Assembly: GCA_028818695.1 (NCBI GenBank)
Contig: JAPPNK010000029.1
Location: 225,450 to 289,449 of the forward strand
Source: Candidatus Poribacteria bacterium
GTDB taxonomy: Bacteria > Poribacteria > WGA-4E > GCA-2687025
Reading direction: 5' to 3'
Length of the DNA stretch: 64,000 nt
This document shows, one piece after another, positions 14,007-38,975 of this stretch. A program made the translations under genes and the position numbers. The notes under the pieces were generated by a model. The model did not search any database. It was not told the origin of the DNA and was given only the letters and a program-made list of their open reading frames with translations. Position 1 is the stretch's first letter. Each line of letters begins with the position of its first letter.

Positions 14007-15110
14007 CTATTCTTCCTCTGCGCCTTCGTTTTCCTCTTGGGAGGAGCCGAATTTCATTGCGAGATAAATCCCTCCGAAAAGCAGAAGTACGACAGCTGCC
14101 GCTCCGATCATAAAGCGGCGAATCCCCGAATCCACCGTCTTCCCAGACGTCTTTATACTGAGCGTCGACATCAACGTAGACGGGAATTTATATGTTAAAG
14201 GGGCGCCGAAGGCGTCCAGCTGCTGACGGCCGGAGCTATCGTAAAAGGAAAATTCTGCCGCAGTTTCATCGAATTGGACGAGCGGAGCCTGTTTGTCAAA
14301 CTTCCGAACGATCTCGATCAACTTCCTGCCCAGTTTCTCGGCGCGCTCCTCGTCCGACCGCCCCTTTAAAGAGAGCTCCACATTCAACTTTGAGAGCTCA
14401 TAGTCGATATTCGCAATCATGGATTCGATCCCTCTTGGGTACTCCAGCGGCGAGATCGGAGAGGGGGTCGGCGTCAATCCTGGCAAAATGGAAGGGATCG
14501 TCGGGGAACCTGGCGAACGATGCCGGTGAATATGGGAGATGAGAAGCCCGAGGTTCGCGTGTTTAAAGCTGCGCCAGTTGTTTTCAAGATCCGACAATGC
14601 GGCGTTCAGATTGAACGCAAACGGATCGCGCTCAATCATATGGAATTTAAGCACACTGTTGAGTCGGGAAGCGAATGTGCCGCCTCCCCCTCCGCCGCTA
14701 TATCCGGACGATGTGATATGGTAATGGTAGCACATCAACGTTTGTTTTCGCTCGTTGTATTTGACGGAGGAGGAGCCGTCCGGCGTCAGTTCATGGAGTT
14801 TGCGCATCTCTGTGAGATACAGCTGGCGGAGCTTCGGCAGCCTCTCATTGACAGGGACATTTTCCTTTTTCAACTGCTCGTTCCGAAGCAGGAGCTGATT
14901 GCCGACGTCGGTAACGAGCGCATGCATGTCTTTAAACATAACAGAGCCTGGCTCACCGCGCATACGATGCTCGGTCCGTTGGGTCATCTCGTAGACGGCC
15001 GCTTGCAATTCGAGGGTGAAGTTTTCGGCGTCGGCGCGGATCGGCGCCAAACAGACGACAGCGGCGGTTACGGCGAAGGTTAAGGCGGTTGACGGGGCGT
15101 ATCGGCGCAT
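14007..15110 (-). CDS. Array paralog 13 (last): two-domain extracytoplasmic protein with C-terminal anchor
   Basis: 367 residues from the ATG at 15110, preferred because GGAAAG stands before it; an upstream ATG at 15122 lacks such a site. A Sec signal (MRRYAPSTALTFAV) is followed by domain copy 1 (about 25-120; core VNERLPKLRQLYLTEMRK then HELTPDG and VKYNERKQTL). Next come a six-glycine linker, domain copy 2 (about 215-285; ELSKLNVELSLKGRSDEERA then FSFYD), a TM segment (about 335-355) and an acidic tail. I do not recognise the family. It is the terminal gene of the minus-strand array and is very similar to the next paralog. Confidence 0.85.
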   Translation of the reverse strand: MRRYAPSTALTFAVTAAVVCLAPIRADAENFTLELQAAVYEMTQRTEHRMRGEPGSVMFKDMHALVTDVGNQLLLRNEQLKKENVPVNERLPKLRQLYLTEMRKLHELTPDGSSSVKYNERKQTLMCYHYHITSSGYSGGGGGGTFASRLNSVLKFHMIERDPFAFNLNAALSDLENNWRSFKHANLGLLISHIHRHRSPGSPTIPSILPGLTPTPSPISPLEYPRGIESMIANIDYELSKLNVELSLKGRSDEERAEKLGRKLIEIVRKFDKQAPLVQFDETAAEFSFYDSSGRQQLDAFGAPLTYKFPSTLMSTLSIKTSGKTVDSGIRRFMIGAAAVVLLLFGGIYLAMKFGSSQEENEGAEEE

Positions 15111-15216
15111 CGGTCTTTCCATTTATTTTGCGGTTTTAGGGCGGCGCCCTCTCTTTCTTAAGTATAAAAGAGCCTGCCTGCGCGAGGCGAGGGCGGCGCG
15201 CGTCATTCTGATCATC

Positions 15217-16320
15217 TTATTCGCTCTCTGCGCTTTCGTTTTTCTCTTGGGCGGAGCCGAATTTCATTGCGAGATAGATTCCTCCGAAGAGCAGAAGTAC
15301 AACGGCTGCCGCCCCGATCATAAAGCGGCGAATCCGCGATTCCACCGCCTTCTCAGACATGTGTATATTGAGCGCCGACATCAACATAGACGGGAATTTA
15401 TACGTTAAAGGGGCGCCGGAGGCGTCCAGCTGCTGACGACCGGATCTATCGTAAAAGGAAAATTCAGCAGCGCCTTCATCGAATTGAACGGTTGACGCCA
15501 GTTTGTCAAACTTCCGGACGATCTCGACCAACTTCTTGCGCAGTTTTTCAGCGCGCTCCTCGTCCGACCGCCCCTTTAAAGACAGCTCCACATCCAACTT
15601 TGAGAGCTCATAGTCGATATTCTCAATCATGGATTCGATCCCTCTTCGGTACTCCAGCGGCGAGATCGGAGCGGGGGTCCGCGTCAATCCTGGCAAAACG
15701 GGAGGGATTATCGGGGAACCTGGTGAACGATGCCGGTGAACATGGGGACCGACAAGCCCGTAATTTGAGCGTTGAAAGTTGCGCCAGTCGTTTTCAAAAT
15801 GCGACAATGCATCTTTCAGTTTGAGCGCAAACGGGTCGCGCTCAATCATATGGAATTCAAGCAGCCTGTTGAGTCGGGAAGCGAATGTGCCGCCTCCGCC
15901 TCCGCCGCTATATCCGGACGATGTGATATGGTAATGGTAGCACATCAACGTTTGTTTTCGCTCGTTGTATTTGACGGAGGAGGAGCCGTCCGGCGTCAGT
16001 TCATGGAGTTTGCGCATCTCTGTGAGATACAGCTGGCGGAGCTTCGGTCTCCTCTCATTGACAGGGACACTTTCCTTTTTCAACTGCTCGTTCCGAACCA
16101 GGAGCTGATTGCCGACGTCGGTAACGAGCGCATGCATGTCTTTAAACATGACGGAGCTTGGCTCACCGCTCATACGGCGCTCGGTCCGTTGGGTCATCTC
16201 GTGGACGGCCGCTTGCAGTTCGAGGGTGAAGCTCTCGGCGTCGGCGCGGATCGGCGCCAAACAGAATGCCGCGGCGGTTACGGCGAAGGTTAAGGCGGTT
16301 GACGGGGCGTATCGGCGCAT
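15217..16320 (-). CDS. Array paralog 12: two-domain extracytoplasmic protein with C-terminal anchor
   Basis: 367 residues from the ATG at 16320, behind GGAGAG. The order is as in its neighbour at 14007-15110: signal peptide, domain 1, Gly-run, domain 2, TM helix, acidic tail (AQEKNESAESE). Differences cluster in the middle (HFENDWRNFQRSNYGL) and in domain 2, while the first 120 residues and the TM are almost the same, pointing to a recent duplication or gene conversion. The 106-nt spacer after it holds a fragment resembling the 3' end of another array gene. Function unknown. Confidence 0.85.
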   Translation of the reverse strand: MRRYAPSTALTFAVTAAAFCLAPIRADAESFTLELQAAVHEMTQRTERRMSGEPSSVMFKDMHALVTDVGNQLLVRNEQLKKESVPVNERRPKLRQLYLTEMRKLHELTPDGSSSVKYNERKQTLMCYHYHITSSGYSGGGGGGTFASRLNRLLEFHMIERDPFALKLKDALSHFENDWRNFQRSNYGLVGPHVHRHRSPGSPIIPPVLPGLTRTPAPISPLEYRRGIESMIENIDYELSKLDVELSLKGRSDEERAEKLRKKLVEIVRKFDKLASTVQFDEGAAEFSFYDRSGRQQLDASGAPLTYKFPSMLMSALNIHMSEKAVESRIRRFMIGAAAVVLLLFGGIYLAMKFGSAQEKNESAESE

Positions 16321-16374
16321 TGGTCTCTCCATTTTATTCAGCGGTTTAGGGCAGCGCGCGTCATTCTGATCATC

Positions 16375-17469
16375 TTATTCGCTCTCTGCGCTTTCGTTTT
16401 CCTCTTGGGAGGAGCCGAATTTCATTGCGAGATAAATCCCTCCGAAAAGCAGAAGTACTACGGCTGCCGCTCCGATCATAAAGCGGCGAATCCGCGAGTC
16501 CACCGCCTTCTTAGACGTCTGCATATTGAGCGCCGACATCAACGGAGACGGAAATTTATACGTTAAAGGGGCGCCGGAGGCGTCCAGCTGCTGACGGCCG
16601 GAGCTATCGTAAAAGGAAAATTCAGCAGCGCCTTCATCGAATTGAACGGTCGGCGTCAGTTTGTCAAGCTTCCGGACGATCTCGATCAACCTCTTGCGCA
16701 GTTTCTCGGCGCGCTCCTCGTCCGACCGCCCCTTTAAAGAGAGCTCCACATCCAACTTTGAGAGCTCATAACTGATATTCTCAGCCATGGAGAGGATCCC
16801 TCTTGGGTACTCCAGGGGCGAGATCGAAGCGGGAGACGGCGCGAATCCTGGAAAAACGGGCGGGATCGGGGAACCTGTCGAAAAATGCCCGCGCCTATGG
16901 GCGCTGAGAAGCCCGAAGTTCGCGTGTCCAAATCTGCCCCAGTCGCGTTCAAGGCGCAACAATGCGGCGCTCAGATTCAGCGCAAACGAATCGCGCTCAG
17001 CCATATGGACTTCAAGCAGGAGAGTAAGGGAACCGATTCCGCCGCCTCCCCCTCCTCCTCCGCTGAATCCGCCGGACGAGCTGAACTCAAAATAGTAAAA
17101 CATCAGCGTTTGATTCATCTCATTATATCTCACGACGGTGTTTCCGTCCGGCTTCAGTTTATGGAGTTTGCGCATCTCTGTGAGATACAGCTGGCGGAGT
17201 ATCGGCAGCCTCTCGTTGACAGGGACCTTTTCCTTTTTCATCTGCTCGTTCCGATGCAGGAGCTGATTGCCGACGCCGACAACAAGCGCATGCATGTCTT
17301 TCGCCATGATGGACCTGGGATGCTGGCGCATTCGCGAATCGGTATATCGGGTTATCACTTGGACGCCCGCTTCCAGTTCAAGAGTGAACTTTTCAGCGTT
17401 GGCGCGGATCGGCAAGCAAACAACCGCCAGCGCAACAAGAACAGCGGTCGTCAAGGCGGTTCGGGTCAT
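16375..17469 (-). CDS. Array paralog 11: two-domain extracytoplasmic protein with C-terminal anchor
   Basis: 364 residues. Start ATG 17469 follows AAGGAG. The signal peptide is MTRTALTTAVLVALAVVCLP. Domain 1 is VNERLPILRQLYLTEMRK then HKLKPDG and VRYNEMNQTLMFYY, followed by SGGFSGGGGGGGG. Domain 2 is ELSKLDVELSLKGRSDEERA then FSFYD. The C-terminal TM IGAAAVVLLLFGGIYLAMK and tail match paralogs 12 and 13, whereas its signal peptide matches paralogs 8-10, so it looks like a hybrid between the two subgroups. It starts 12 nt after the stop of the preceding gene. Function unknown. Confidence 0.85.
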   Translation of the reverse strand: MTRTALTTAVLVALAVVCLPIRANAEKFTLELEAGVQVITRYTDSRMRQHPRSIMAKDMHALVVGVGNQLLHRNEQMKKEKVPVNERLPILRQLYLTEMRKLHKLKPDGNTVVRYNEMNQTLMFYYFEFSSSGGFSGGGGGGGGIGSLTLLLEVHMAERDSFALNLSAALLRLERDWGRFGHANFGLLSAHRRGHFSTGSPIPPVFPGFAPSPASISPLEYPRGILSMAENISYELSKLDVELSLKGRSDEERAEKLRKRLIEIVRKLDKLTPTVQFDEGAAEFSFYDSSGRQQLDASGAPLTYKFPSPLMSALNMQTSKKAVDSRIRRFMIGAAAVVLLLFGGIYLAMKFGSSQEENESAESE

Positions 17470-17481
17470 GGTTTCTCCTTG

Positions 17482-18555
17482 TTATTGCGTTTCGGCGTTG
17501 TGATCGGCTTCTTTGGCGGAGCCGCGCTTCATGACAAGAAAAACGCCAGCCAAAACAAGCAGCAAGAGAGCCGCCCCTCCGCCCAGCAGCAGCTGCAGAC
17601 CTTTCGCGTTCCCTTGTGTCGGCGCCTGCATGTTCAGCGCCGCCATGAACTTGGGCGGAAACTCAAACACGATTGGAGCGCCGGCGCTGTCAAGGATCGG
17701 GCCGCTGGCGTCGCGGAAAGGGATTTTCACCGCTCCGCCCTCAACCTGAACCTCCAGCCCGATATACTCGACTTTTCGGATCATCTCAAAGAAGAGATTG
17801 CGCAGTTTCTTGGCGCGCTCCTCGCGCGGCGTCTTCTGCTCCGCCAGCTCCACATCCAGTTTTGTCAGCTCATATTCGATCCGGTCCACGAGAAACATAA
17901 ATCTTCTCTCCATATACCGCTCCAGCATGGGAGAAGGCGGAGGGGTCAACCCCGACGGGTTGGGGCGGACAATCTCCCTCTCGATAATATGATTGATTTT
18001 GCCGATATGCTTGGAGAAAAAATCCATAAACCACTTATTTCTGAGCTCCTGCAATCCCTCCGTCAGCTCGCTCGCGGCAGGGTCGTCGCCTATACTCTCC
18101 TCTATCTTGAGCAGCGATTGCAACTTTGATGCGAATTCGTCGCCTCGTCTTCCGCCTCCTCCGCCTGTAGGACTGTAATGATAGAAGAGCAGCGACTGCT
18201 TGCGCTCATTGTACCGCGCTCTCGAATTGCCGTCCGGCTCCATCTCATGGATTTGGCGCATCTGCCGGAGATACATCTGGCGCAGGATCGGTATGCGCTC
18301 TTCGTTCGGCGTCTTTTGCGTTGCCATGTGCGCGTTCTGCAACAGCAGCTGATTGCCAACCTCCGAGAACAGTCTGGCAAGGTTTTGCGCCATGACAGAG
18401 CTAGGGTTGCCTTTGGCAAGCCCCTGCCCGTGTTCAACCAGCTGATAGACCGCCTCTTCCAGATGGGGGGTGAAAGCGTCCTGGTCGGCGCGCAGCGGCA
18501 GGCATACAAACGCCAGCGCGACAAGAACAGCGGTCGGCGGAGCGGTTCGGGTCAT
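17482..18555 (-). CDS. Array paralog 10: two-domain extracytoplasmic protein with C-terminal anchor
   Basis: 357 residues. The signal is MTRTAPPTAVLVALAFVCLP. Domain 1 holds NEERIPILRQMYLRQMRQIH and ARYNERKQSLLFYHY, followed by GGGGGRRGDEF. Domain 2 holds ELTKLDVELAEQKTPREERA and a beta segment (VQVEGGAVKIPFRD). TM LLLGGGAALLLLVLAGVFLV is followed by MKRGSAKEAD, so the domains face the periplasm or outside. Its start overlaps the previous stop by 4 nt. Long stretches are identical at DNA level to paralog 9 at an offset of about 1,070 bp, a recent tandem duplication. Function unknown. Confidence 0.86.
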   Translation of the reverse strand: MTRTAPPTAVLVALAFVCLPLRADQDAFTPHLEEAVYQLVEHGQGLAKGNPSSVMAQNLARLFSEVGNQLLLQNAHMATQKTPNEERIPILRQMYLRQMRQIHEMEPDGNSRARYNERKQSLLFYHYSPTGGGGGRRGDEFASKLQSLLKIEESIGDDPAASELTEGLQELRNKWFMDFFSKHIGKINHIIEREIVRPNPSGLTPPPSPMLERYMERRFMFLVDRIEYELTKLDVELAEQKTPREERAKKLRNLFFEMIRKVEYIGLEVQVEGGAVKIPFRDASGPILDSAGAPIVFEFPPKFMAALNMQAPTQGNAKGLQLLLGGGAALLLLVLAGVFLVMKRGSAKEADHNAETQ

Positions 18556-19625
18556 GATTCAGCTTCGGCGTTGCGATCGGCTTCTTTGGCGGAATCGCGC
18601 TTCATGACAAGAAAGACGCCCGCCAAAACAAGCAGCAAAACAGCCGCCCCTCCGCCCAGCAGCAGCTGCAGACCTTTCGCGTTCCCTTGTGTCGGCGCCT
18701 GCATGTTCAGCGCCGCCATGAACTTGGGCGGAAACTCAAACACGATTGGAGCGCCGGCGCTGTCAAGGATCGGGCCGCTGGCGTCGCGGAAAGGGATTTT
18801 CACCGCTCCGCCCTCAACCTGAACCTCCAGCCCGATATACTCGACTTTTCGGATCATCTCAAAGAAAAGGTTGCGCAGTTTCTCGGCGCGCTCCTCGCGC
18901 GGCGTCTTCTGCTCTGCCAGCTCCGCATCCAGTTTTGTCAGCTCATATTCGATCCGGTTCATGAGACTACTAAACCTTCTATCCGTATACCGCTCCAGCA
19001 TGGTAGGAGGCGGAGGGGTCAACCCCGACGGGTTGGGGCGGACAATCTCCCTCTCGATGATATGATGGATTTTTCTTTGATGCTTGAAATAATTCCTAAA
19101 CCACTTATGTAAGAGCTCCTGCAATCCCTCCGTCAGCTCGCTCGCGGCAGGGTCGTCGCCTATACTCTCCTCTATCTTGAGCAGCGATTGCAACTTTGAT
19201 GCGAATTCGTCGCCTCGTCTTCCGCCTCCTCCGCCTGTAGGACTGTAATGATAGAAGAGCAGCGACTGCTTGCGCTCATTGTACCGCGCTCTCGAATTGC
19301 CGTCCGGCTCCATCTCATGGATTTGGCGCATCTGCCGGAGATACATCTGGCGCAGGATCGGTATGCGCTCTTCGTTCGGCGTCTTTTGCGTTGCCATGTG
19401 CGCGTTCTGCAACAGCAGCTGATTGCCAACCTCCGAGAACAGCCTGGCAAGGTTTTGCGCCATGACAGAGCTAGGGTTGCCGTTGGCAAGCCCCTGCCCG
19501 TGTTCAACCAGCTGATAAACCGCCTCTGCCAGATGGGGGGCGAAAGCGTCCTGGTCGGCGCGCAGCGGCAGGCATACAACCGTCAGCGCAATTAGAACGG
19601 CGGTCGGCAGAGCGGTTCGGATCAT
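18552..19625 (-). CDS. Array paralog 9: two-domain extracytoplasmic protein with C-terminal anchor
   Basis: 357 residues, near-twin of paralog 10, with the same architecture and length. Differences are concentrated in the linker between the domains (KWFRNYFKHQRKIHH here, KWFMDFFSKHIGKINH there) and in a few signal-peptide residues. The TM is LLLGGGAAVLLLVLAGVFLV. It overlaps both neighbours by 4 nt (18552-18555 and 19622-19625), so translation of paralogs 8, 9 and 10 is probably coupled. Function unknown. Confidence 0.86.
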   Translation of the reverse strand: MIRTALPTAVLIALTVVCLPLRADQDAFAPHLAEAVYQLVEHGQGLANGNPSSVMAQNLARLFSEVGNQLLLQNAHMATQKTPNEERIPILRQMYLRQMRQIHEMEPDGNSRARYNERKQSLLFYHYSPTGGGGGRRGDEFASKLQSLLKIEESIGDDPAASELTEGLQELLHKWFRNYFKHQRKIHHIIEREIVRPNPSGLTPPPPTMLERYTDRRFSSLMNRIEYELTKLDAELAEQKTPREERAEKLRNLFFEMIRKVEYIGLEVQVEGGAVKIPFRDASGPILDSAGAPIVFEFPPKFMAALNMQAPTQGNAKGLQLLLGGGAAVLLLVLAGVFLVMKRDSAKEADRNAEAES

Positions 19626-21606
19626 GATTCAGTTTCAGCGTTGTGAACGGCTTCTTTGGCAGAGCCGCGCTTCATGACAAGAAAGACGCCCGCCAAAACA
19701 AGCAGCAAAACAGCCGCCCCTCCGCCCAGCAACAGCTGCAAACGCTTCGCGCTCCCTTGGCTGGCGCTCGAAATCATCACCGCCGCCATGAGCTTGGGCG
19801 GAAACTCAAACACGATTGGAGCGCCGGCGCTGTCAAGGATCGGTCCTCTGGCGTCGCGGAAGGGGATTTTCACCGCTGCGCCCTCAACCTGAACCTCCAG
19901 CCCGATATACTCGACTTTTCGGATTATCTCGAAGAAAAGGTTGCGCAGTTTCTTGGCGCGCTCCTCGCGCGGCGTCTTCTGCTCCGCCAGCTCCACATCC
20001 AGTTTTGTCAGCTCATATTCGATCTGCCTCATGAGATCGCGGAGGTTTCTACGCATAGACCGCTCCAGGGGGGTAGGAGGCGGAGGGGTCAACCCCCCAG
20101 GATTGGGGGGGACGATCTCCCTCTCGACAATATGACGGATTTCGCTTCGATGCTTGTGTTCAAGATCCCACAACCTATGGGAGAGCTCCTGCAATCCCTC
20201 CGTCAGCTCGCTCGCGGCAGGGTCGTCGACTATACTTTTCTCTAACTTGAGCAGCGATTGCAACTTTGATGAGAATCCGGTTCCGCCTCCGCCGCCTCCC
20301 CCTGTAGGACCATAATGATAGAAGGACAGCGACTGCTCGCGCTCATTGTATAAAACCATCGAATTGCCGTCCGGCTTCATCTCATGGATTTGGCGCATCT
20401 GCCGGAGATACTGCTGGCGCAGGATCGGTATGCGCTCTTCGTCCGGCGTCTTTTGCGCTTCCATCTGTTCGTTCTGCAACAACAGCTGGTTGCCAATCTC
20501 TGAGAACAGTCTGGCGAGGTTTTGCGCCATGACGGAGCTAGGGTCGTCTTTGGCAAGCTTCCGCCCATGTTCAGTCAGCTGATAGACCGCCTCTTCCAGC
20601 TGCGCGGTGAAGCTCATAGGGGGAAGCGGTTTGGGAGGCTCGGGCGGCTGAGCGGAGGCAGGCAGAGCGACCGTCTTCAACCCTAGAATGCTCATCAGCT
20701 TGTGAGGATAGGCAAAGACGATCGGGTTGCCGGCAGGGTCGACTCTCGGTTTACCGATACAGTCTAAAAAGAGAATCTGACCCGTCGGCTCATTGTATCG
20801 AACGACCGGCCATATCTCGCCGACCCGCTGAACGATTTCTAAAAACCGCTCGCGCAGTTTCTTGGAGCGCTCCTCGTCGGTCAGATTCTGTTCGCCCAGC
20901 TGAATATCCAGTTTCGAGAGCTCGTAGAAGACGGTATTAACCATGGATTCAGCGCCGTCCGGAAACTCCAGCATAAGGGCGACAGGGGACGCCGTACCGC
21001 TTGCTGGAGACGCTGGCTCAGCGTGGCGCAGATCGCTAATATGATCATGGTTTGTGAAAGAGAAATCGCTCCAACTGTCATTGAGCTCCATCAAAGCGAG
21101 CAACAGATTGTCCGAATATGAATCGTAGTCCTCTTGATTTAGCCCGATATTGAGCAGTTCCCTGAGTCTCCTACATATGCCGCCGCCCCCGCCCCCGCCG
21201 CCGAATCCGCCGGACGATCGGACGTTGTAATGGTAAAAGCTCAGCGATTGCATCCGTTCATTGTAGATCGCCGCGGAGGCTCCGTCCGGCTTCATCTCAT
21301 GGATCTTACGCATCTGCTGGAGATACAGCCGTCGCAGAATCGGTATGCGCTCCTCAACGGGCGTTTTTTTCTGGCGCAGCTGCGCGTTCTCTTGAATCAG
21401 CTGTTGTCCGATATTCGTAAACAGCTCGCTCAGGTCTTTCGCCATGAAAGAATTTGGGTCATCTTCGGCAAGTTTCTCCCCCTCTTTTTTAGCTCTTCAA
21501 CGCCCGCTTTCAGCTCGCGGGTGAAAGCGGCGTCGTCGGCGCGCAGCGGCAGGCATACAACAGCCAGCGCAACAAGAACGGCGGTCGTCAAGGCGGTTCG
21601 TATCAT
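19622..21606 (-). CDS. Array paralog 8: four-domain fused protein read across a -1 frameshift
   Basis: From ATG 21606 (behind GGAG) frame 0 gives a signal peptide and EFTRELKAGVEELKKR-type helix, then stops at 21430-21432 after 58 residues. The rest of the protein lies in the -1 frame. Slippage on the A-AAA-AAG heptamer (21484-21490) restores EGEKLAEDDPNSFMAKD, exactly the paralog consensus, giving about 661 residues. It holds four domain copies (two two-domain units joined by PPEPPKPLPP) and one C-terminal TM. Either a programmed frameshift, or a lost A in a homopolymer (mutation or assembly error). A start at the internal ATG 21445 (607 residues) would lack a signal peptide. Confidence 0.8.
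21484..21490 (-). promoter_or_regulatory. Candidate -1 ribosomal frameshift heptamer A-AAA-AAG
   Basis: On the minus strand the frame reads CTA AAA AAG AGG GGG, giving the X-XXY-YYZ heptamer of the dnaX type in the correct phase. A GA-rich, Shine-Dalgarno-like stretch (AGAGGGGGAG) follows immediately. A -1 slip yields the frame conserved in the paralogs. Confidence 0.5.
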
Positions 21607-21666
21607 GGCGTCTCCTTTCAGCCAATGCGGCGGCAGATCAAGCGCGCCGACCTTTTACCATTGCGA

Positions 21667-21695
21667 AGTATAAAGCGCAAAAGTGCCGACCGCAA
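21667..21695 (-). promoter_or_regulatory. Possible promoter upstream of paralog 8
   Basis: Minus-strand TTGCGG (21690-21695), 17-nt spacer, TATACT (21667-21672), about 60 nt before ATG 21606, in the 125-nt gap 21607-21731. The gap also carries a relic gene start (GGAGAAACCG then ATGCGCCGAT at about 21706-21724) resembling those of paralogs 12 and 13. Confidence 0.4.
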
Positions 21696-21731
21696 ATTGG
21701 CGGGCTGCATCGGCGCATCGGTTTCTCCAGT

Positions 21732-22757
21732 TTATCCAGCGGTTTTAGGGCGGCGCTCTCTCTTTCTAAAGTATAAGAAAGCCAGCCCGCATACCGCAAA
21801 TGCCGCCGCGATAGCGATGCGAAGGCGCCGCGTTTTGTTCCGATGATTCCATATGTCGAGAACCCCAAGAATTTCCGCTGAAATCCTCCCGCCGCCGCGT
21901 TCATAACTTCCCGGATCGGGGGTATGGATGAACAGAAGCGTGAAGTCGCCCGCGTCGTATTCCACCTCGTAATTCTCGACAGGTTTAAAATCGTTGAACC
22001 GCTTCATCCATTTTTGAAACCGACCGCGCAGCTTGGAGACGCGTTTGTCGTATGAGGCGTTTTGTCGGCGCAGTTCGCCGTCCAATTTGATCATATCGGC
22101 GCTGATTTCGGAGATGCGCTCGTTGAATCGCTGCGCAAACTCCCTATCCGTCTTGTCCTTGTAGATGTTTCGATACGCTTCTTTGAAATCGTCAAGCGCG
22201 TATTTCAAGGCGCGGGTGAAGGCGTTTGGGTCGGTTCGCAGCTCCTGTTCGACAAACGAATGCAGATCGAAGAGCCGCTCAAGATTGCTCCCTAAGCCGA
22301 TCTCAAAGAGGCTGACGCTGCCGCTCGCCAACAGATCTCCTTTAGAAGAAGCGCGGGAAACGGAGCCGGATTCGTAGATTCTCATGTTCTGATGCGCTTC
22401 ATCGTATCTCACTTTCGCCCCGTTGATCGGTTTCAGATCATGCAGCGGCTCCATCTGTTCGCGGTAACGCTTGCGAAGCATGTCAATGCTCTCCTCGCGG
22501 GAAATGTTCCGCGCGAGGAGCTGCTCGTCATATTCGGTCAACGCCGTTGCCGTATTGGAGAGGATGTCGGCAATCTGTTTCGCCAGTTCAGATTCGGGGA
22601 GCTCTCGGTGAATGGTTTGGCTGGCAGTCATGAGATCGTTGACGCCCGCTTGAAGCTGTGTCGAAATGGAGTCTAGATTCGTTTGCGCCGCGTTTTGGAG
22701 AAGCGGCGCGGCGGTCAAAGCAAGCAAGACGGCAGTTGCTGAGGCGCGGCGGGACAT
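21732..22757 (-). CDS. Array paralog 7: divergent two-domain protein linking the small and large subgroups
   Basis: 341 residues from ATG 22757, preferred over 22772 because GGAG lies 6 nt before it. Signal peptide SATAVLLALTAAPLL. Domain 1 has ALTEYDEQLLARNISREES and HDLKPINGAKVRYDEAHQNM. Domain 2 has IKLDGELRRQNASYDKRVS and FNDFKPVENYEVEYDAGDF. The C-terminal TM (IAIAAAFAVCGLAFLYF) is followed by RKRERRPK. Domain 1 keeps features of both subgroups (YDEQLL-x-x-N as in the small proteins, LKP-VRYDE as in the large ones), so it ties the whole array into one family. No glycine run. Function unknown. Confidence 0.83.
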   Translation of the reverse strand: MSRRASATAVLLALTAAPLLQNAAQTNLDSISTQLQAGVNDLMTASQTIHRELPESELAKQIADILSNTATALTEYDEQLLARNISREESIDMLRKRYREQMEPLHDLKPINGAKVRYDEAHQNMRIYESGSVSRASSKGDLLASGSVSLFEIGLGSNLERLFDLHSFVEQELRTDPNAFTRALKYALDDFKEAYRNIYKDKTDREFAQRFNERISEISADMIKLDGELRRQNASYDKRVSKLRGRFQKWMKRFNDFKPVENYEVEYDAGDFTLLFIHTPDPGSYERGGGRISAEILGVLDIWNHRNKTRRLRIAIAAAFAVCGLAFLYFRKRERRPKTAG

Positions 22758-22768
22758 GGGTCTCTCCT

Positions 22769-23419
22769 TCATTGCCCAATTTCGAGCAGGGTGTAGATTT
22801 TTGGCAAGGGAATGCCGTCAAAATAAGTCATGACTTCGTCGGCTGTGTTGGATAAGCTTGGGTCTCTATCCAGCTCGTCAAATTTCTTTCCTGTTTCTAC
22901 ATACCGCTCGCGCAGCGCGGCGATTCGCTCTTGGCGCGGAAGATTTTGTTGGCGCGATTCCGCATCGATACGGGCAAGATCGACGCTTAAATCGGAGAAC
23001 ATGACCGCGATCCCCGCCGCGAATTCGGAACTAGAAAACTTGTCGTTGATATCTTGCGCGATCTGGTCAAGCTCTTGGATCGCCTCTTGAAGCTGAACCG
23101 CGAAGGCGTCTGGGGCGTCCGCTTCAAGGGCGTCGGACGGAGAGGCGGATTCGCCGCCGCTGTCGGACGAGGAGGCGGACTCTTTGGCTTCGGCGTTTTC
23201 AGGAACGGGAGGCTCTTCTTGACTCTCCGGCGCGGAGATTTCGTCGGCGGTTTGCGTCGGCTCTTCCGCAGATTTTTGCTCAATGCTTGGCGACTGCTCC
23301 TCTACGGGGAGTCCGTTTTCAGCCTCGTCTCCAGAGCCGCCGGCGATGACGAAATATAAAACGGCGAAGGCGGCTAAAATAACAACCGCTAAGACAGCGA
23401 AAATGACATTCAGGCGCAT
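22769..23419 (-). CDS. Array paralog 6: small one-domain protein with N-terminal anchor
   Basis: 216 residues. Residues 1-27 (MRLNVIFAVLAVVILAAFAV then LYFVIAGG) are a signal anchor with an Arg before it, predicting N-in/C-out. Residues about 30-105 are an acidic Glu/Pro/Ala/Ser linker without cysteine. One domain copy follows (LQEAIQELDQIAQDIN, then SDLSVDLARIDAESRQQNLP and RQERIAALRERY). The end KIYTLLEIGQ is a variant of the KLxTLLGL ending shared by the small paralogs. It lies 11 nt before paralog 7. Function unknown. Confidence 0.83.
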   Translation of the reverse strand: MRLNVIFAVLAVVILAAFAVLYFVIAGGSGDEAENGLPVEEQSPSIEQKSAEEPTQTADEISAPESQEEPPVPENAEAKESASSSDSGGESASPSDALEADAPDAFAVQLQEAIQELDQIAQDINDKFSSSEFAAGIAVMFSDLSVDLARIDAESRQQNLPRQERIAALRERYVETGKKFDELDRDPSLSNTADEVMTYFDGIPLPKIYTLLEIGQ

Positions 23420-23483
23420 TGTGTTTTCCTTTCATGCGCGTTGCGCCTCTGGTCAAATAGAGGCGGTTGAAGCACCGCGGCCG

Positions 23484-24116
23484 TCAGTCCAGGCCAAGCA
23501 GCGTTACGAGCTTCAAACGTTCTATTTCCTCCATTGCCGTCGCTATTGCCGGATCGTTCTCATCATGTTCCGGCTCCCCGACCTGTTCCGCAATCTGGAA
23601 GGAGCGCGCCTTCAGCTTCGCAATCCGCTCTTCTTTCGTCAAGTTCTGGCTCAGCAGCTGCTCGTTATAGCGCGTCAGCTCGTCCGAATGGCGGGCGGCC
23701 ATATCCGTCATATACATGCTCACCGGATTGTTTGGAAATCGCGACCGCAAGGAGTTGGCGAATTGGGTGAACTCTTCGAGCGCGTCCAGAAGTTCGACGG
23801 TGAACGGGTCTTGCGGAGCGGCTTGCGGAGCGTCGGGCTGTGTCGCGCCGGCGCTCTCGCCGGACAGGATGGCGGACTCTTCGACTTCGGCGTTTTCAGG
23901 AACAGAAACTTCTTCTTGCCGCTCGGGCGTAGAGGTTTCGGCGGCGGTTTGCGTCGGCGTTTCGGCAGCGCTCTGCTCAATGCGCGGCGATTGATCCTCT
24001 ACAGAGAGGCCGTTTTCAGGCTCGTCTCCAGAGCCGCCGGCGATGATGAAGTATAAAACGGCGAAGGCGGCCAAAACAACGACCGCTAAAACAGCGAGAA
24101 TGACGTTCAGACGCAT
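23484..24116 (-). CDS. Array paralog 5: small one-domain protein with N-terminal anchor
   Basis: 210 residues: signal anchor MRLNVILAVLAVVVLAAFAV, acidic linker, then one domain (FTVELLDALEEFTQFANSL, SDELTRYNEQLLSQNLTKEE then RIAKLKARSFQ). It ends KLVTLLGLD. It has its own predicted promoter (24149-24177). Its linker and domain start are nearly the same as in paralogs 2 and 3, with substitutions mostly after the SQNL motif. Function unknown. Confidence 0.83.
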   Translation of the reverse strand: MRLNVILAVLAVVVLAAFAVLYFIIAGGSGDEPENGLSVEDQSPRIEQSAAETPTQTAAETSTPERQEEVSVPENAEVEESAILSGESAGATQPDAPQAAPQDPFTVELLDALEEFTQFANSLRSRFPNNPVSMYMTDMAARHSDELTRYNEQLLSQNLTKEERIAKLKARSFQIAEQVGEPEHDENDPAIATAMEEIERLKLVTLLGLD

Positions 24117-24148
24117 TACATATTTTCCATAGTTTATAAATCGCCCTT

Positions 24149-24177
24149 ATTCTAAAATGACAGCGCCTGATTGTCAA
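24149..24177 (-). promoter_or_regulatory. Internal sigma70-type promoter in the array
   Basis: Minus-strand TTGACA (24172-24177), 17-nt spacer, TAGAAT (24149-24154), 33 nt before ATG 24116, in the widest spacer between small paralogs (24117-24239). The close match to consensus suggests the array is read as at least two units. Confidence 0.6.
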
Positions 24178-24187
24178 TTGCCGTCCA

Positions 24188-24208
24188 GCGCCTTTCCAGT
24201 GAAGGCGC
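24188..24208. other. 7-bp perfect stem-loop between paralogs 4 and 5
   Basis: GCGCCTT (24188-24194) pairs with AAGGCGC (24202-24208) around a 7-nt loop, about 32 nt after the stop of paralog 4 and just upstream of the internal promoter. There is no U-tract, so it is a weak terminator candidate. Confidence 0.35.
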
Positions 24209-24239
24209 GTCAGGGCATGACGCTCTCCCTTCTCGTCTG

Positions 24240-24896
24240 TTATAAGCCGAGCAGCTGTGTGAGTTTTTTCGGTTCATTCGATTCGAGAAATTGCGAAACC
24301 GCTTCCACATCTTCACTCATCGGATCAAAGCCCGCCATCATCGACTCCATCTCCTCTTCAAACCGCTTACCGACTTCCTCAGCCCGCTGTTTCAACTTGG
24401 CGATGCGCTCTTCTCTTGTCAGGCTCTGCCTGCTCAATTCAGCGTCGTATCGCATCAGCGTGGAACCAAGATCGGAGAATAAATCTGCGGAAATTTCTGC
24501 AAGCTTAGAATTTGGAAACCTGTCAAGCATCCTTTGCACAATATCGTTCATTTCATCGACTCCCTCTTGAAGCTCAAGTGTGAACGGGTCTTGCGGAGCG
24601 GCTTGCGGGGCGTCAGGTTGTGTCGCGCCGGCGCTCTCGCCGGACGGGGCGGCGGACTCTTCAGCCTCGGCGTCTTCATAGACAGGAGCCTCTTCTTGCC
24701 GCTCCGGCGCAGAGGTTTCGTCGGCGGTTTGCGTCGGCGTTTCGGCAGCGCTCTGTTCAATGCGCGGCGATTGATCCTCTACAGAGAGGCTGTTTTCAGG
24801 CGCGTCTCCGGAGCCGCCGGCGATGACGAAGTAAAGAACGGCGAAGGCGGCCAAAATAACAACCGTTAAGACAGCGAAAATGACATTTAGGCGCAT
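24240..24896 (-). CDS. Array paralog 4: small one-domain protein with N-terminal anchor
   Basis: 218 residues: anchor MRLNVIFAVLTVVILAAFAV, acidic linker containing ENSLSVEDQSPRIEQSAAET (shared almost exactly with paralogs 2, 3 and 5), one domain (LELQEGVDEMNDIVQRMLD, STLMRYDAELSRQSLTREER then IAKLKQRAEEVGKRFEEEM). It ends KKLTQLLGL. The domain is more divergent than in paralogs 2, 3 and 5 while the linker is nearly identical, a mosaic pattern. Function unknown. Confidence 0.83.
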   Translation of the reverse strand: MRLNVIFAVLTVVILAAFAVLYFVIAGGSGDAPENSLSVEDQSPRIEQSAAETPTQTADETSAPERQEEAPVYEDAEAEESAAPSGESAGATQPDAPQAAPQDPFTLELQEGVDEMNDIVQRMLDRFPNSKLAEISADLFSDLGSTLMRYDAELSRQSLTREERIAKLKQRAEEVGKRFEEEMESMMAGFDPMSEDVEAVSQFLESNEPKKLTQLLGL

Positions 24897-24963
24897 TGTG
24901 TTTTCCTTTCATGCGCGTTTGCGCCTCCGGTCAAATAGAGGCGCGGTTGGGGAGCTGCGGCCG

Positions 24964-25596
24964 TCAGTTCCAGCCAAGCAGCGTTCTGATCTTCAATCGT
25001 TCTATTTCCTTCATTGCCGTTGCTATTGCCGGATCGTCCTCATCAAATTCTGGCTCCTCGACTTGATCGGTAATCTGGGAGGAACGCTCCTTCAGCCTCG
25101 CAATCCGTTCTTCTCTCGTCAAGTTCTGGCTCAGCAGCTGCTCGTTATAGCGCGTTATCTTGTCCGAATGGCGGGCGGCTATATCCGTAATATACATGCT
25201 CACCAGACTGTTTGGAAATCGCGACTGCAAGGAGTCAGCAAACAGGGTAAACTCTTCGAGCGCGTCCTGAAGTTCGACGGTGAGCGGGTCTTTCGGAGCG
25301 GCTTGCGGGGCGTCGGGTTGCGTCGCGCCGGCGCTCTCGTCGGACGGGGCGGCGGACTCTTCGGCTTCGGCGCTTTCAAGGACGGGAGCCTCTTCTTGCC
25401 GCTCCGGCGCAGAGGTTTCGTCGGCGGTTTGCGTCGGCGTTTCGGCAGCGTTCTGTTCAATGCGCGGCGATTGATCCTCTATGGAGAGGCCGTTTTCAGC
25501 CTCGTCTCCGGAGCCGCCGGCGAGAACAAAATAGAGAACAACGAAGGCAGCCAAGACCGCTGCCGCTAAGACGGCGAGAATGATGTTGAGACGCAT
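24964..25596 (-). CDS. Array paralog 3: small one-domain protein with N-terminal anchor
   Basis: 210 residues: anchor MRLNIILAVLAAAVLAAFVV, acidic linker, one domain (LTVELQDALEEFTLFADSL, SDKITRYNEQLLSQNLTREE then RIARLKERSSQITDQ). It ends KIRTLLGWN. Very similar to paralog 5. The 67-nt spacer to the next gene contains no strong promoter match. Function unknown. Confidence 0.83.
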   Translation of the reverse strand: MRLNIILAVLAAAVLAAFVVLYFVLAGGSGDEAENGLSIEDQSPRIEQNAAETPTQTADETSAPERQEEAPVLESAEAEESAAPSDESAGATQPDAPQAAPKDPLTVELQDALEEFTLFADSLQSRFPNSLVSMYITDIAARHSDKITRYNEQLLSQNLTREERIARLKERSSQITDQVEEPEFDEDDPAIATAMKEIERLKIRTLLGWN

Positions 25597-25632
25597 GGCG
25601 GTTTCCTTTCATGCGGGGTTGAGGCGCCGCGG

Positions 25633-26295
25633 TCACCAGTCGAGGCCAAGCAGAGTCATGAGCTTCCTCGGCATGTTCGCTTCCATATAACGCCCCATCT
25701 CCTCCATGGACGCCGCCAGCGCCGGATCGTCTATATCAAATTCCGGCTCATCGGCTTGATCGGTGATCTGTTCGGCGCGCTCCTTCAGCTTCGCAATCCG
25801 TTTCTCTCTTGTCAAGTTCTGGCTCAGCAGCTGCTCGTCATAGCGTGTCAACTCGTCCGAGAGACGGCCGACCACATCGACAACGAATACGCTCATCGGA
25901 TTGTTTGGAAATCGCGACCGCAAGGAGTCGGCAAATTGGGTGAACTCTTCGAGCGCTTCCAGAAGTTCGACGGTGAACGGGTCTTGCGGACCGGCTTGCG
26001 AGGCGTCGGACTGCGTCGCGCCGGCGCTCACGCTGTCGTCGGACGGGGAAGCAGACTCTTCTGCCTCGGCGTTTTCAAGGATGGGAGCCTCTTCTTGCCG
26101 CTCCGGCGCGGAGGTTTCGTCGGCGGTTTGCGTCGGCTCTTCGGCAACGCTCTGTTCAATGCGCGGCGATTGATCCTCTACGGAGAGGCCGTTTTCAAGC
26201 TCGTCTCCGGAGCCGCCAGCGATGACGAAGTAAAGAACGACAAAGGCGGCCAAAATGACCGCCGCTAAGACAGCGAAAATGATGCTCAAACGCAT
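25633..26295 (-). CDS. Array paralog 2: small one-domain protein with N-terminal anchor
   Basis: 220 residues: anchor MRLSIIFAVLAAVILAAFVV, acidic linker, one domain (FTVELLEALEEFTQFADSL, SDELTRYDEQLLSQNLTREK then RIAKLKERAEQ). It ends KLMTLLGLDW. It lies 36 nt before paralog 3 and 15 nt after paralog 1. Function unknown. Confidence 0.83.
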   Translation of the reverse strand: MRLSIIFAVLAAVILAAFVVLYFVIAGGSGDELENGLSVEDQSPRIEQSVAEEPTQTADETSAPERQEEAPILENAEAEESASPSDDSVSAGATQSDASQAGPQDPFTVELLEALEEFTQFADSLRSRFPNNPMSVFVVDVVGRLSDELTRYDEQLLSQNLTREKRIAKLKERAEQITDQADEPEFDIDDPALAASMEEMGRYMEANMPRKLMTLLGLDW

Positions 26296-26310
26296 GGCGA
26301 TTTCCTTTCT

Positions 26311-26976
26311 TTATTGGTGAGGCAATCCGAGAAGGGCGAACAGTTTGCGGGGTTTGTTGTTTTCAAAGAATTGGTCGTACGCCTCCTCTTCTCCAGGGTC
26401 CATTGCGTCCGTTACCGCATCAACCTCCGGCTGGAGCCGTTGCGCGGTCTCGCTGAGGCGGGCGGCAAGCCTGGCGGCGCGCTCCCCGCGCTCCAAGTTT
26501 TGATCTTGCAGCTCCTCGTTGTATTCCGCCACGCTGTCTGCAACTTCATTCATCAGAGCTGCGATGTCGGTTGCCCTCGGACCTGGATGCAATTCAACAA
26601 AACGCTGGGTCAGCTCCTTAAATTCAGTGAGAGCGTCCTGAAGTTCGACGGTGAACGGATCTTGCAGAGCGGCTTGCGGGGCGTCGGGCTGCGCCGCGCC
26701 GGCGCTCTCGCTGTCGGAGGACGGGGCGTCAGACTCTTCAGAGGCGGTTGACTCTTCAAAAGCGGGCGTTTCCTTTTCCCCCGCCGGCGCAGAGGCATCG
26801 GCGGCGGTTTGCTGTGTGGCTTCGTCAGATTTCTGTTCAATGCGCGGCGACTGCTCTTCTACAGAGAGGCCGTTTTCAAGCCCGTCGTTTGAACCGCCGG
26901 CGATGACGAAGTAAAGAACGGCGAAGACTGCCAAGACAACCGCCGCCAAAACTGCTATCATAACGTTCAGACGCAT
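26311..26976 (-). CDS. Array paralog 1 (first): small one-domain protein with N-terminal anchor
   Basis: 221 residues from ATG 26976, chosen because GGAG lies before it; an ATG at 26988 is weaker. Anchor MRLNVMIAVLAAVVLAVFAV, an acidic linker richer in Ser/Thr than its neighbours, then one domain (FTVELQDALTEFKELTQRF, ADSVAEYNEELQDQNLERGE then RAARLAARLSE). It ends KLFALLGLPHQ. It is the promoter-proximal gene of the 13-gene array. Function unknown. Confidence 0.83.
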   Translation of the reverse strand: MRLNVMIAVLAAVVLAVFAVLYFVIAGGSNDGLENGLSVEEQSPRIEQKSDEATQQTAADASAPAGEKETPAFEESTASEESDAPSSDSESAGAAQPDAPQAALQDPFTVELQDALTEFKELTQRFVELHPGPRATDIAALMNEVADSVAEYNEELQDQNLERGERAARLAARLSETAQRLQPEVDAVTDAMDPGEEEAYDQFFENNKPRKLFALLGLPHQ

Positions 26977-27009: not shown

Positions 27010-27039
27010 ACTATAACGCAGCGTCGGGAACGTTGTCAA
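27010..27039 (-). promoter_or_regulatory. Main predicted promoter of the 13-gene paralog array
   Basis: Minus-strand TTGACA (27034-27039), 18-nt spacer, TATAGT (27010-27015), 34 nt upstream of the first array ATG (26976). A second TTGACA lies at 27049-27054, spaced 15 bp from the first, possibly a repeated operator or an alternative -35. Confidence 0.6.
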
Positions 27040-36639: not shown

Positions 36640-36674
36640 TAAGCTGCCTCGTTTGTCGCTCGTTCTTTACTCAT
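36640..36674 (-). pseudogene. Truncated MSKER-type gene start
   Basis: Overlapping the stop of the 36667-38208 gene, AAGGAGG and 6 nt precede an ATG at 36674 that reads MSKERATNEAA before a stop. The same N-terminus opens all members of the adjacent repeat family, so this is probably the remnant of a deleted further copy. The 93-nt gap after uvrA holds nothing else. Confidence 0.4.
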
Positions 36675-38208
36675 CAACGCCCTCCTTCAGCGCGGCCAAA
36701 TACGCCTCCGTCGCCGCATGCCATGCCGCTAGCGCCTTCGTCGCTCGCACCAGTGCCGTTTCAACTAACGTCAATGCCCACTGTGTCTCCGAGGCTTCCG
36801 ATACCGCCAGTATCGCCCGTGCCTTCTTATACGCCTCCAGTGCCTTCGCCACCGCCGCCCGCGCCTTTTCAACAGCCGCCCATTCATCCGGTGCCGACGC
36901 TTTATACTTCTTCAGTGCTGTAAAATACGCCTCCGACGCCAGAGCCTTTTCATACGTCTCTAGAGCCCCTCCAACACCAGGTGCCAACGCTAGTGCCTTT
37001 GCCGCCGACGCCAGTGTTTTTGCCGCCACCTGCGCCTTCGCTGCCGCCGCTCGCGCCGGCAGCGCGTCCTGTACCAACGCTTCATTCAGCACCGTTCCAA
37101 GTGCCGCTTTCGCCTCTTCAAACGCCGCCCAGGCTCCCGCCTTTCTACTCACCATCTCTGCCCGCGCCCTTTCATACGCTGCATACTCCGCTGGCGCCTT
37201 CTCCTCCAGCGCAAGCCGCGCTGTCAAATACGCCGCATACCCATCCACCGCCGTCGCAAGCAGCTCTGCCCGCGCCTTTTTAACCTCTCTCTCCGCATGC
37301 GCCCGCAACTCTGCCATCAACGCTAACACCGACTCCTGCTCCATCCCTGCGTCTATCATGCGCGCCTCTGCCTGCGCCGCATACTCATCCTGCGCCCACT
37401 GCACCTTCCCTGCCCGTGCCTTTTCATAGACCTCCCATTCATCAGCCGCCGACGCTTTTAACGCCTCCACCGCCGTTTCATACAACTCATACTCCTCCTG
37501 CGCTTTCTCCTTTAGCGGAAGCCGCGCCGTTTCATACGCCGCCAGTATATCCGCCTGAATCGCTGCTATCGCTTTCTTCTTAAACAACACCCGATAACGC
37601 TCCACCCTTGCTGCCGACGCCTTCGTCTCCGCCTGTTCAAAAGCCACCCATTCATCAGCCGCCGACGCTTTTAACGTCGCCATCGCTTTTTTAACCGCCT
37701 CCTGCGTCTTCGCATTCTGCGCTGTCGCCCACTCAACCGGAGCCTTCTCCTCCAGCGCAAGCAGCGCCTTTTCAACAGCTGCCTCCGCCGCCTCCACCGC
37801 TTCATCCAACACCTTTTCATATGTCGCATACTCCTCCGGCGTTAACCGCGCCAGCATCTGCAGCCCAAGCTTCGCCTCCAAATACGCCTTATATTCCTCC
37901 GGTGCCGCCGCAAGCCGCGCCTTTACAACCGCCGCAAACGCTTTCTCATACGCCGCCCATTCCTCCGGTGCCGCCGACGCCAACAGCACCTGAAAAGGCG
38001 TCTCCGCCTTCCCCTCCAGTTCCTTTTCATGCTCCATCCACCCATCAAGCGCTGCATATTCAGCCCGCGCCGCCTGCAACGCCGCATACTTATCAGGCAC
38101 CGCAGCCTCCGGCTCCGCGTCCGCCGGCTGACCGCCACAGCCCGCCCAGGTCAACGCCAACGCCACGCACACCCATGCTGTCGTCTTTATCAAACGCTCT
38201 TTACTCAT
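36667..38208 (-). CDS. Large Ala/Glu-rich repeat lipoprotein (APDEWAAYEKA repeats)
   Basis: 513 residues from ATG 38208 (GGAGGA before it). MSKERLIKTTAWVCVALALT then WAGC is a lipoprotein-like signal, with an unusual Trp at -3. The mature part is almost wholly helical and holds about 13 copies of a degenerate 12-mer, consensus A-P-x-E-[WY]-x-x-[YFV]-E-x-A (for example APEEWAAYEKAF, AADEWEVYEKAR, APAEYAAYERAR, APDEWAAVEKAR), at irregular spacing near 20 residues. Only the lipobox Cys and two signal-region Cys are present. I know no family with this repeat; an extended coiled-coil or solenoid on the membrane is plausible. Confidence 0.8.
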   Translation of the reverse strand: MSKERLIKTTAWVCVALALTWAGCGGQPADAEPEAAVPDKYAALQAARAEYAALDGWMEHEKELEGKAETPFQVLLASAAPEEWAAYEKAFAAVVKARLAAAPEEYKAYLEAKLGLQMLARLTPEEYATYEKVLDEAVEAAEAAVEKALLALEEKAPVEWATAQNAKTQEAVKKAMATLKASAADEWVAFEQAETKASAARVERYRVLFKKKAIAAIQADILAAYETARLPLKEKAQEEYELYETAVEALKASAADEWEVYEKARAGKVQWAQDEYAAQAEARMIDAGMEQESVLALMAELRAHAEREVKKARAELLATAVDGYAAYLTARLALEEKAPAEYAAYERARAEMVSRKAGAWAAFEEAKAALGTVLNEALVQDALPARAAAAKAQVAAKTLASAAKALALAPGVGGALETYEKALASEAYFTALKKYKASAPDEWAAVEKARAAVAKALEAYKKARAILAVSEASETQWALTLVETALVRATKALAAWHAATEAYLAALKEGVDE

Positions 38209-38237
38209 CCGATTCCTCCATCCGCCCGTTATTCGTA

Positions 38238-38939
38238 TCAGCACTGCAGCAGCCGCCAACGCACCGCTGTCCGCGCCTCCTTAAACTCTGCCCACTCATC
38301 CGGCACCGCCCGTTTCAACGCTTCCAGTGTTTCCTCAACCGCTGTCCGCGCCTCCTCAACCGCCGCCCACTCACCCGGCGCCTCCGCCTCCAGTGCCAAC
38401 TGCGCTGCTGTCCGCTCCTCATACGCCGCGTCCAGCGCAATCCCCGCCTCCGTAAATACCGTCCACTCACCTGGCACCGACGCCATCAACACCTCTGCCG
38501 CAGCCGCCTTTGCCGCTGCTTCAACCTGCTCATCCGACGCCCCATCCGCTGATGCTCTTGCTCCCGCCGCAGACGCAGCCGTCCGCGCCGCTTCACGCTC
38601 CGCCTCACACGCATTCAGTGCCGCTAAAGCCTTCGCTTCCGCCGCTTCCCTAACCTCAACAGCTGTCTGCGCCGCCTCACGCTCCGCCCATTTATCAGGC
38701 GCTGCCGCTTTTAACCTTCGTTGCGCCTCCTTAACCGCCGTTCGCGCCGCCCCCACTGCAGCCCATTTATCAGGCGCCTCTCGTTTCAACGCTTCTAGTG
38801 CCTCATACGCTACCTTATATTCAGCCGCCGCAGCTGCCTCATCCGCCGGCAGCACTGACCTCAACCCAAACGCCTCCCCCATCTCCTCCAACGTTGGCTT
38901 GTCCTCACAGCCCGCCTGCATCAACCGCTCTTTACTCAT
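38238..38939 (-). CDS. APDEWAAYEKA-repeat protein without signal segment
   Basis: 233 residues from ATG 38939, behind GGAGG; the ORF is open further upstream but only through promoter sequence. It starts MSKERLMQAGCEDKPTLEEM. Compared with the larger paralog, the hydrophobic stretch between MSKERL and AGC is missing, so export is doubtful. Repeats include APDKWAAVGAARTAV, APDKWAEREAAQTAV, APGEWAAVEEARTAV and VPDEWAEFKEARTAV. Ala/Glu/Arg-rich, helical. It lies 30 nt before the larger paralog and has its own predicted promoter. Confidence 0.75.
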   Translation of the reverse strand: MSKERLMQAGCEDKPTLEEMGEAFGLRSVLPADEAAAAAEYKVAYEALEALKREAPDKWAAVGAARTAVKEAQRRLKAAAPDKWAEREAAQTAVEVREAAEAKALAALNACEAEREAARTAASAAGARASADGASDEQVEAAAKAAAAEVLMASVPGEWTVFTEAGIALDAAYEERTAAQLALEAEAPGEWAAVEEARTAVEETLEALKRAVPDEWAEFKEARTAVRWRLLQC

Positions 38940-38975
38940 CCGTCGCCTCCGTCCATTTGTATTGCCTTGCCAGCA

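Follow-up and report, generated by a model that had tools for sequence, protein, structure and literature searches.

A poribacterial tandem array of sigma-less membrane proteins shares its domain with membrane-tethered ECF sigma factors

Few groups of sigma factors are known that carry an outward-facing domain on the same chain, and the signal that is sensed is rarely known. In Clostridium thermocellum, RsgI proteins carry carbohydrate-binding modules that are also used by cellulosome proteins. These anti-sigma I factors are membrane signal transducers with various extracytoplasmic sensory modules (PMC6056542). For the extracytoplasmic function (ECF) sigma factors of groups ECF52 and ECF53, activation by proteolysis has been proposed (PMC8999054, PMC5826349), and IutY (ECF243) of Pseudomonas putida is an ECF sigma fused at its C-terminus to a membrane-spanning regulatory part and freed by Prc and RseP (PMC8999054). 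We analyzed a stretch of 64,000 nucleotides (the window) from a Candidatus Poribacteria genome (GenBank assembly GCA_028818695.1, contig JAPPNK010000029.1, positions 225,450 to 289,449) that includes a tandem array of 13 genes in which a single domain is present in 22 copies. Five membrane-tethered ECF sigmas of this genome have this domain as their ectodomain. Within the library of papers searched, none was found that joins Poribacteria and ECF sigma factors.

Across the genome (3.57 Mb in 35 contigs), the domain was matched 35 times in 24 proteins, 13 of them in the array, five on contig C21, three on C26, two on C2, and one on C35. Carriers are mostly sigma-less (19 vs. 5 sigma-fused). Of the five fused proteins, three are on C21, one is on C2, and one is on C35. 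Each is an ECF sigma that ends in the domain, and the order is Sigma70_r2, Sigma70_r4_2, a transmembrane (TM) helix, a juxtamembrane QSP motif, an acidic linker, and the domain. Both sigma domains score above curated cut-offs, and TIGR02937 is matched at 71–75 bits against a cut-off of 42.9. For the sigma part, each of the five nearest named relatives is from Candidatus Poribacteria, in agreement with the placement of this DNA in that phylum. The small genes of the array have the architecture of the fused proteins minus the sigma half. No sigma region 2 or region 4 domain and no family match to a cytoplasmic anti-sigma domain were detected among the window proteins scanned, and the cytoplasmic part of the array proteins is limited to a few residues before the TM helix in small forms and a short tail after it in large forms. 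An earlier note on this DNA had proposed a host- or matrix-facing coat, which is not supported; because the domain is on five membrane-tethered ECF sigmas of the same genome, a signaling role is the better reading.

The array occupies positions 14007–26973 of the window, with all 13 genes on the minus strand and reading from 26973 down to 14007. Genes 1–6 (the 26311–22769 set; 210–220 amino acids) encode small forms with an N-terminal TM helix followed by an acidic linker and one domain. In the products of gene 7 and genes 9–13 (346–371 amino acids), two domains lie between a signal peptide and a C-terminal TM helix. The topology of the large forms is thus opposite to that of the small forms; they have G-rich linkers and lack the QSPR motif described below. 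Copies of the domain add up to 22, with six in the small genes, two in gene 7, four in gene 8, and two in each of genes 9–13. The genes and the two good promoters of the array are:

27010–27039, minus strand: TTGACA-18-TATAGT, sigma-70-like promoter (11 of 12 positions match) upstream of gene 1
26311–26973, minus strand: gene 1, small form; one domain (26314–26661) behind TM helix, QSPR motif, and acidic linker
25633–26295, minus strand: gene 2, small form; domain 25636–25983, modeled by AlphaFold2
24964–25596, minus strand: gene 3, small form; domain 24967–25290
24240–24896, minus strand: gene 4, small form; domain 24243–24590
24149–24177, minus strand: TTGACA-17-TAGAAT, sigma-70-like promoter (11 of 12 positions match) upstream of gene 5
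23484–24116, minus strand: gene 5, small form; domain 23487–23810
22769–23419, minus strand: gene 6, small form; domain 22772–23110
21732–22772, minus strand: gene 7, two domains (22260–22673 and 21849–22226); signal peptide, C-terminal TM helix
19622–21606, minus strand: gene 8, four domains (21146–21496, partial; 20672–21124; 20240–20617; 19772–20227)
18552–19625, minus strand: gene 9, large form, two domains (19170–19550 and 18702–19157)
17482–18555, minus strand: gene 10, large form, two domains (18100–18480 and 17629–18087); modeled full-length
16375–17469, minus strand: gene 11, large form, two domains (17002–17394 and 16522–16995)
15217–16332, minus strand: gene 12, large form, two domains (15847–16236 and 15364–15840)
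14007–15122, minus strand: gene 13, large form, two domains (14637–15026 and 14154–14630)

The array genes are probably expressed, given intact frames in all except gene 8, ribosome sites, and promoters. The most natural start of gene 1 is the ATG at 26973. Gene 8 is broken near 21492, with its start (ATG 21606, signal peptide) and its body (19622–21496) in different frames, and its first domain lacks the first helix in the open frame. This frameshift (21480–21500) sits in the run AAAAAAGAGGGGG; a sequencing error, a pseudogene, or slippage may account for it.

Profile counts confirmed the 13 same-strand genes and 22 copies that the earlier note had reported and bear out its inference of local amplification. 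A profile of the six small domains matches all seven large genes at 43–94 bits, whereas no score above 6.4 bits arises from 700 shuffled large proteins. The small and large subgroups also align in profile–profile comparison, both for first domains (97.5%, E 6.4e-12) and for second domains (97.3%, E 1.7e-11) of the large forms, so the claim withstands a test whose failure the earlier note had named as refuting it. These scores show that the 22 units are one domain. Gene 7 is, per domain, the large form nearest to the small profile (47 and 30 bits), consistent with its suggested place as a bridge between subgroups. The K-P-D-G-x-x-x-V-x-Y-N-E motif, previously assigned to the large forms as such, holds for their first domain, and the second domain has a variant. 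Hydrophobicity and charge predict an extracytoplasmic location, as the earlier note had proposed.

The domain was called undescribed in the earlier note, and scans of Pfam, NCBIfam, and PHROGs agree in yielding no family match above any cut-off. A PADLOC scan gave weak stray matches, none above cut-off, and no sugar-binding or enzyme family was recognizable in domain-library scans. Two candidate families were rejected. NF042931 of NCBIfam (E 1.6e-4) spans the TM helix and acidic linker and scores 21.8 bits against a cut-off of 80, and the PhoU domain (PF01895) is matched in two of the 22 units (best E 0.0024), with gene 7 at 17.7 bits against a gathering cut-off of 23.5. Searching the PDB by sequence with the 22-unit profile returned only weak matches to designed helical proteins, apolipoproteins, and other generic helices. 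Modeled by AlphaFold2 with the 22 units as alignment, the gene 2 unit is a small helical bundle (predicted local distance difference test, pLDDT, 94.3) with helices at 2–24, 29–54, 59–76, and 87–103 and a short one at 107–112. The full-length model of gene 10 (pLDDT 74) keeps the three long helices in each half and places a beta-hairpin between helix 3 and the short last helix of each half. Foldseek found nothing at E ≤0.001 for either model. In VIA-align comparisons of the unit model with known structures, the best match (Z 7.7) is a designed bundle and does not reach the score needed to tell a real match between helical bundles from a chance one; known bundle folds considered were copper storage proteins, YtfE, invertase/PME inhibitors, and designed bundles, and the match may reflect only a common arrangement of helices. 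With no family match above cut-off and these structural outcomes, the sequence family is undescribed and its fold need not be new.

Directly behind the TM helix, sigma-fused and sigma-less proteins have in common the motif L-(T/S)-(V/I/L)-E-(E/D)-Q-S-P, followed mostly by R, even where their ectodomains are unrelated. In aligned motif proteins, L37, E40, Q42, and P44 are invariant (13 of 13) and S43 is present in 12 of 13, and a profile of the TM helix plus motif matched ∼20 proteins in the genome. A variant, DETDQSPR, is found in a further sigma-less array on contig C14. The motif is a possible cleavage or docking site. Within the array it lies at:

26836–26865, minus strand: juxtamembrane motif of gene 1, equivalent place
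26158–26187, minus strand: juxtamembrane motif of gene 2, LSVEDQSPRI
25459–25488, minus strand: juxtamembrane motif of gene 3, equivalent place
24759–24788, minus strand: juxtamembrane motif of gene 4, equivalent place
23979–24008, minus strand: juxtamembrane motif of gene 5, equivalent place
23282–23311, minus strand: juxtamembrane motif of gene 6, equivalent place

That an ectodomain has carriers with and without sigma is a general pattern of this genome. Twelve of its ECF sigmas are built with a TM helix and an ectodomain, and the ectodomains belong to several unrelated types. Besides the array domain, three types are found in ECF sigmas and also in membrane proteins without sigma, for one of the three in a tandem array. 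The type of the C3 sigma has one fused and nine sigma-less members, the latter comprising four in tandem on C14, two on C13 (the contig of the window), one on C9, and two on C16. The type of the C9 sigma (L032) has one fused and at least two sigma-less members, one of them broken-looking and located on C3 and the other in the window:

43022–44206, plus strand: sigma-less TM protein with an ectodomain 38% identical to that of the C9 ECF sigma, a second ectodomain type in the window

For the type of the C19 sigmas, three fused proteins and one sigma-less protein are side by side. The two C3-type proteins on C13 (221409–222850) lie just upstream of the window, ∼3 kb from its start, so that ∼50 kb of the contig hold three ectodomain types. 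On C14 (108483–112014; L063), the four tandem genes encode sigma-less TM proteins that have the DETDQSPR motif and a C3-type ectodomain and make up a second array of like plan. In one ECF sigma (L030:1468–2658), the ectodomain has weak similarity (E 1.3e-4, below cut-off) to the C-terminal domain of DnaJ, and C26 has a truncated copy in which most of the sigma is missing (L038:1483–1986). Repeat-rich open reading frames with LDPSGEYATEV repeats, open in more than one frame and with a masked stretch, were seen at L019:1763–3603. In the window, positions 36667–39062 (minus strand) hold two open reading frames rich in A/E/K repeats of the type APEEWAAYEKA, in a stretch where the GC skew (−0.24 to −0.30) is stronger than anywhere else in the window.

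A strong conflict between trees of the TM module and of the ectodomain shows that sigma-fused and sigma-less carriers have exchanged ectodomains. In the TM-module tree, the small genes of the window and one gene on C26 are separated from the sigma-fused genes and the sigma-less genes on C21 (support 100/100), a split that is rejected by the ectodomain tree (approximately unbiased [AU] test, p 3e-6). The ectodomain tree joins gene 1, the sigma-fused gene s2 (L017:8751–10004), and the sigma-less gene t1 (L017:11727–12386) with support of 100/99, and this grouping is rejected by the TM module (AU p 7e-5). Divergence changes along the genes in the same manner. The neighbors s1 and s2 are 98% identical in the sigma part (synonymous divergence, dS, of 0.06) and only 27% identical in their ectodomains, whereas the ectodomain of s2 and that of gene 1, whose nearest relative it is, are 68% identical (dS 0.32). 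Directly upstream of t1, at L017:11497–11726, is a decayed TM module of the MRLN type (an early stop, then an AGGSGDE stretch in another frame), a type still carried by gene 1, and this may be a scar of module replacement. Diversification, as the earlier note had suspected, is consistent with close pairs of second domains, for which the ratio of nonsynonymous to synonymous divergence (dN/dS) is about 0.7–1.2 at low dS. These values suggest weak constraint or diversification and fit relaxed constraint as well; the dN/dS analysis gave no clear positive selection. Exchange was analyzed in one genome, the only one that represents the genus.

We favor, tentatively and with about as much doubt as belief, the reading that the array encodes sigma-less, membrane-anchored ectodomains that are partners or competitors of the membrane-tethered ECF sigmas and set their output. 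The identity of the array is well supported, and the mechanism is what we infer. With almost no cytoplasmic part, the array proteins cannot signal inward themselves, which favors a role as partner or competitor. The ectodomain of a fused protein would lie outside the membrane and hold the sigma domain at the membrane. Contact with a ligand or protein would lead a protease to cut the juxtamembrane region, and an RseP-type protease could then release the sigma, as for IutY. Array proteins would pair with sigma-fused copies or compete for the same ligand, thereby setting sigma output, and diverse ectodomains reshuffled among carriers would provide the cell with many sigma inputs. Several points weigh against this model. 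Its interaction, cleavage, ligand, and expression are inferred indirectly, and the extracytoplasmic side is predicted from hydrophobicity and charge only. The array includes no sigma-fused copy. It also shows no sign of being an ECF regulon, since both of its good promoters are sigma-70-like. Upstream blocks compared by eye revealed one common to the fused genes s1, s2, and s4 and no link to the array, and a candidate ECF-type promoter common to fused genes and array heads was dropped because no upstream block joins them. The QSPR motif could be there by common descent within a single expanding gene family and have no working role, and the large forms, with opposite topology and no such motif, may do something else. 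A more elaborate version, which we consider unlikely, is a combinatorial sensor repertoire in which tethered ECF sigmas would swap hypervariable ectodomains with sigma-less arrays by segmental recombination and the arrays would also be partners or decoys that tune the sigma. If true, bacterial signaling would gain a diversity store and a titration layer.

Nearly as likely as the partner or competitor role, if doubtful taken by itself, is an arrangement like that of RsgI, in which the array encodes the working surface proteins, with a polysaccharide, a partner, or one another as binding target, and the sigmas bear the domain so as to measure the ligand that the array proteins bind. The excess of sigma-less over sigma-fused carriers, the same pattern in three more ectodomain types, the resemblance of large forms with two to four copies to multivalent binding proteins, and the precedent of extracytoplasmic sensory modules (PMC6056542) are all in keeping with it. 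However, no sugar-binding or enzyme family was recognizable, and small forms retain the regulators' TM helix and QSPR module, for which a plain effector would have no use. The sigma-less copies could instead chiefly be a store of ectodomain variants donated to sigma-fused genes by gene conversion. The conflict between trees, the contrasts in dS along genes, and the decayed MRLN-type module just upstream of t1, whose ectodomain groups with that of the MRLN-type gene 1, suit such a store, but the array genes are probably expressed, paralogues commonly undergo exchange that is not what they are for, and the case rests on one genome of the genus. We regard a store as slightly less probable again than the combinatorial repertoire. 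A structural coat or matrix-facing layer with no link to signaling is improbable: although surface-type topology, tandem amplification, G-rich linkers, and the two to four domains of large forms would be expected of it, five ECF sigmas bear the same domain behind a TM helix, and the juxtamembrane motif of the small forms is also on ECF sigmas with other ectodomains. It is hardly credible that the similarity is an artefact of low-complexity helices. Generic helices typically give weak matches of the kind seen here to designed helical proteins and apolipoproteins, but the margin over shuffled sequences and the profile–profile tests contradict this, the conserved core is ungapped, and the model is confident.

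The earlier note had asked whether such arrays recur in other Poribacteria. None was found in 83 other genomes, and four of these, all of family f6, have a credible, distant, single-copy homologue (L074–L077) that aligns to the array domain in hhalign (95.6%, E 1e-8). Searches in reverse from the four f6 proteins alone were weak (best E 0.0065), so the evidence for homology comes from the forward profile and hhalign. No further genomes were added when the f6 homologues were included in the profile. A match in another genome (G025; L078) was dropped because it is gapped, coil-like, and lost with the widened profile. No homologue was found in the named genome collection, searched with the small proteins and with the own genome excluded. 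Among poribacterial ECF loci retrieved, 33 of 37 have tails of at least 120 amino acids, 27 of these 33 with a TM helix, and ECFs recovered from other phyla nearly all end within ∼17 residues of sigma4. Sigma-less neighbors of ECF genes in other Poribacteria gave few matches, mostly cut by locus ends, and were not counted. Two genomes of the same family and another genus (G004 and G005) have 19 and 16 ECF sigma matches, respectively, most of them in long open frames whose tails are of many kinds, and may hold a large unstudied set of membrane-tethered sigmas.

This one genome has 12 tethered sigmas with several ectodomain types, four of which also occur sigma-less, and the commonest is mostly in the 22-unit array. 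Should array ectodomains interact with those of the sigmas, or have a ligand in common with them, an uncultured phylum would be wiring many outside inputs to transcription without separate anti-sigma factors. The shared domain offers a direct handle on the ligand, and the conflict between trees makes ectodomain exchange testable in strain collections and metagenomes.

Membrane-tethered ECF sigmas are already known; what is new here is this ectodomain on them, together with amplified sigma-less copies and cassette exchange. Judging from sequence, the window genes themselves are neither sigma nor anti-sigma factors. The f6 proteins are like them in having a TM helix and the three-helix core of the array domain (79 ungapped columns) and differ in that each genome has a single copy, with neither an array nor a sigma fusion seen, and in the tail after the core. 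RsgI proteins resemble the poribacterial set as membrane transducers with varied ectodomains, presumed to share modules with secreted proteins, but RsgI is a separate anti-sigma protein, whereas here the sigma factor itself bears the ectodomain. Like IutY, the fused relatives are ECF sigmas with a C-terminal membrane part in a genome with RseP homologues; unlike IutY, their tail has no recognizable FecR-type anti-sigma part (Pfam, E up to 0.1) and no TonB-linked receptor was seen beside them. The closest likeness in layout is to ECF52 and ECF53 (SCO4117 of Streptomyces), in which one chain also comprises an ECF sigma, a TM helix, a linker, and an extracytoplasmic domain, and the fused relatives have the TM helix behind sigma4 and the large C-terminal ectodomain of these groups. 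They differ in host phylum (Poribacteria vs. Actinobacteria), in lacking a carbohydrate-binding domain (Pfam) in the ectodomain, and in lacking a zinc-finger anti-sigma segment between sigma4 and the TM helix: Pfam gave no match to one, and the four fused proteins checked have no cysteine anywhere, the sigma4–TM segment included. Arrays of sigma-less ectodomains, described for neither ECF52 nor ECF53 in PMC8999054 and PMC5826349, further set the poribacterial system apart.

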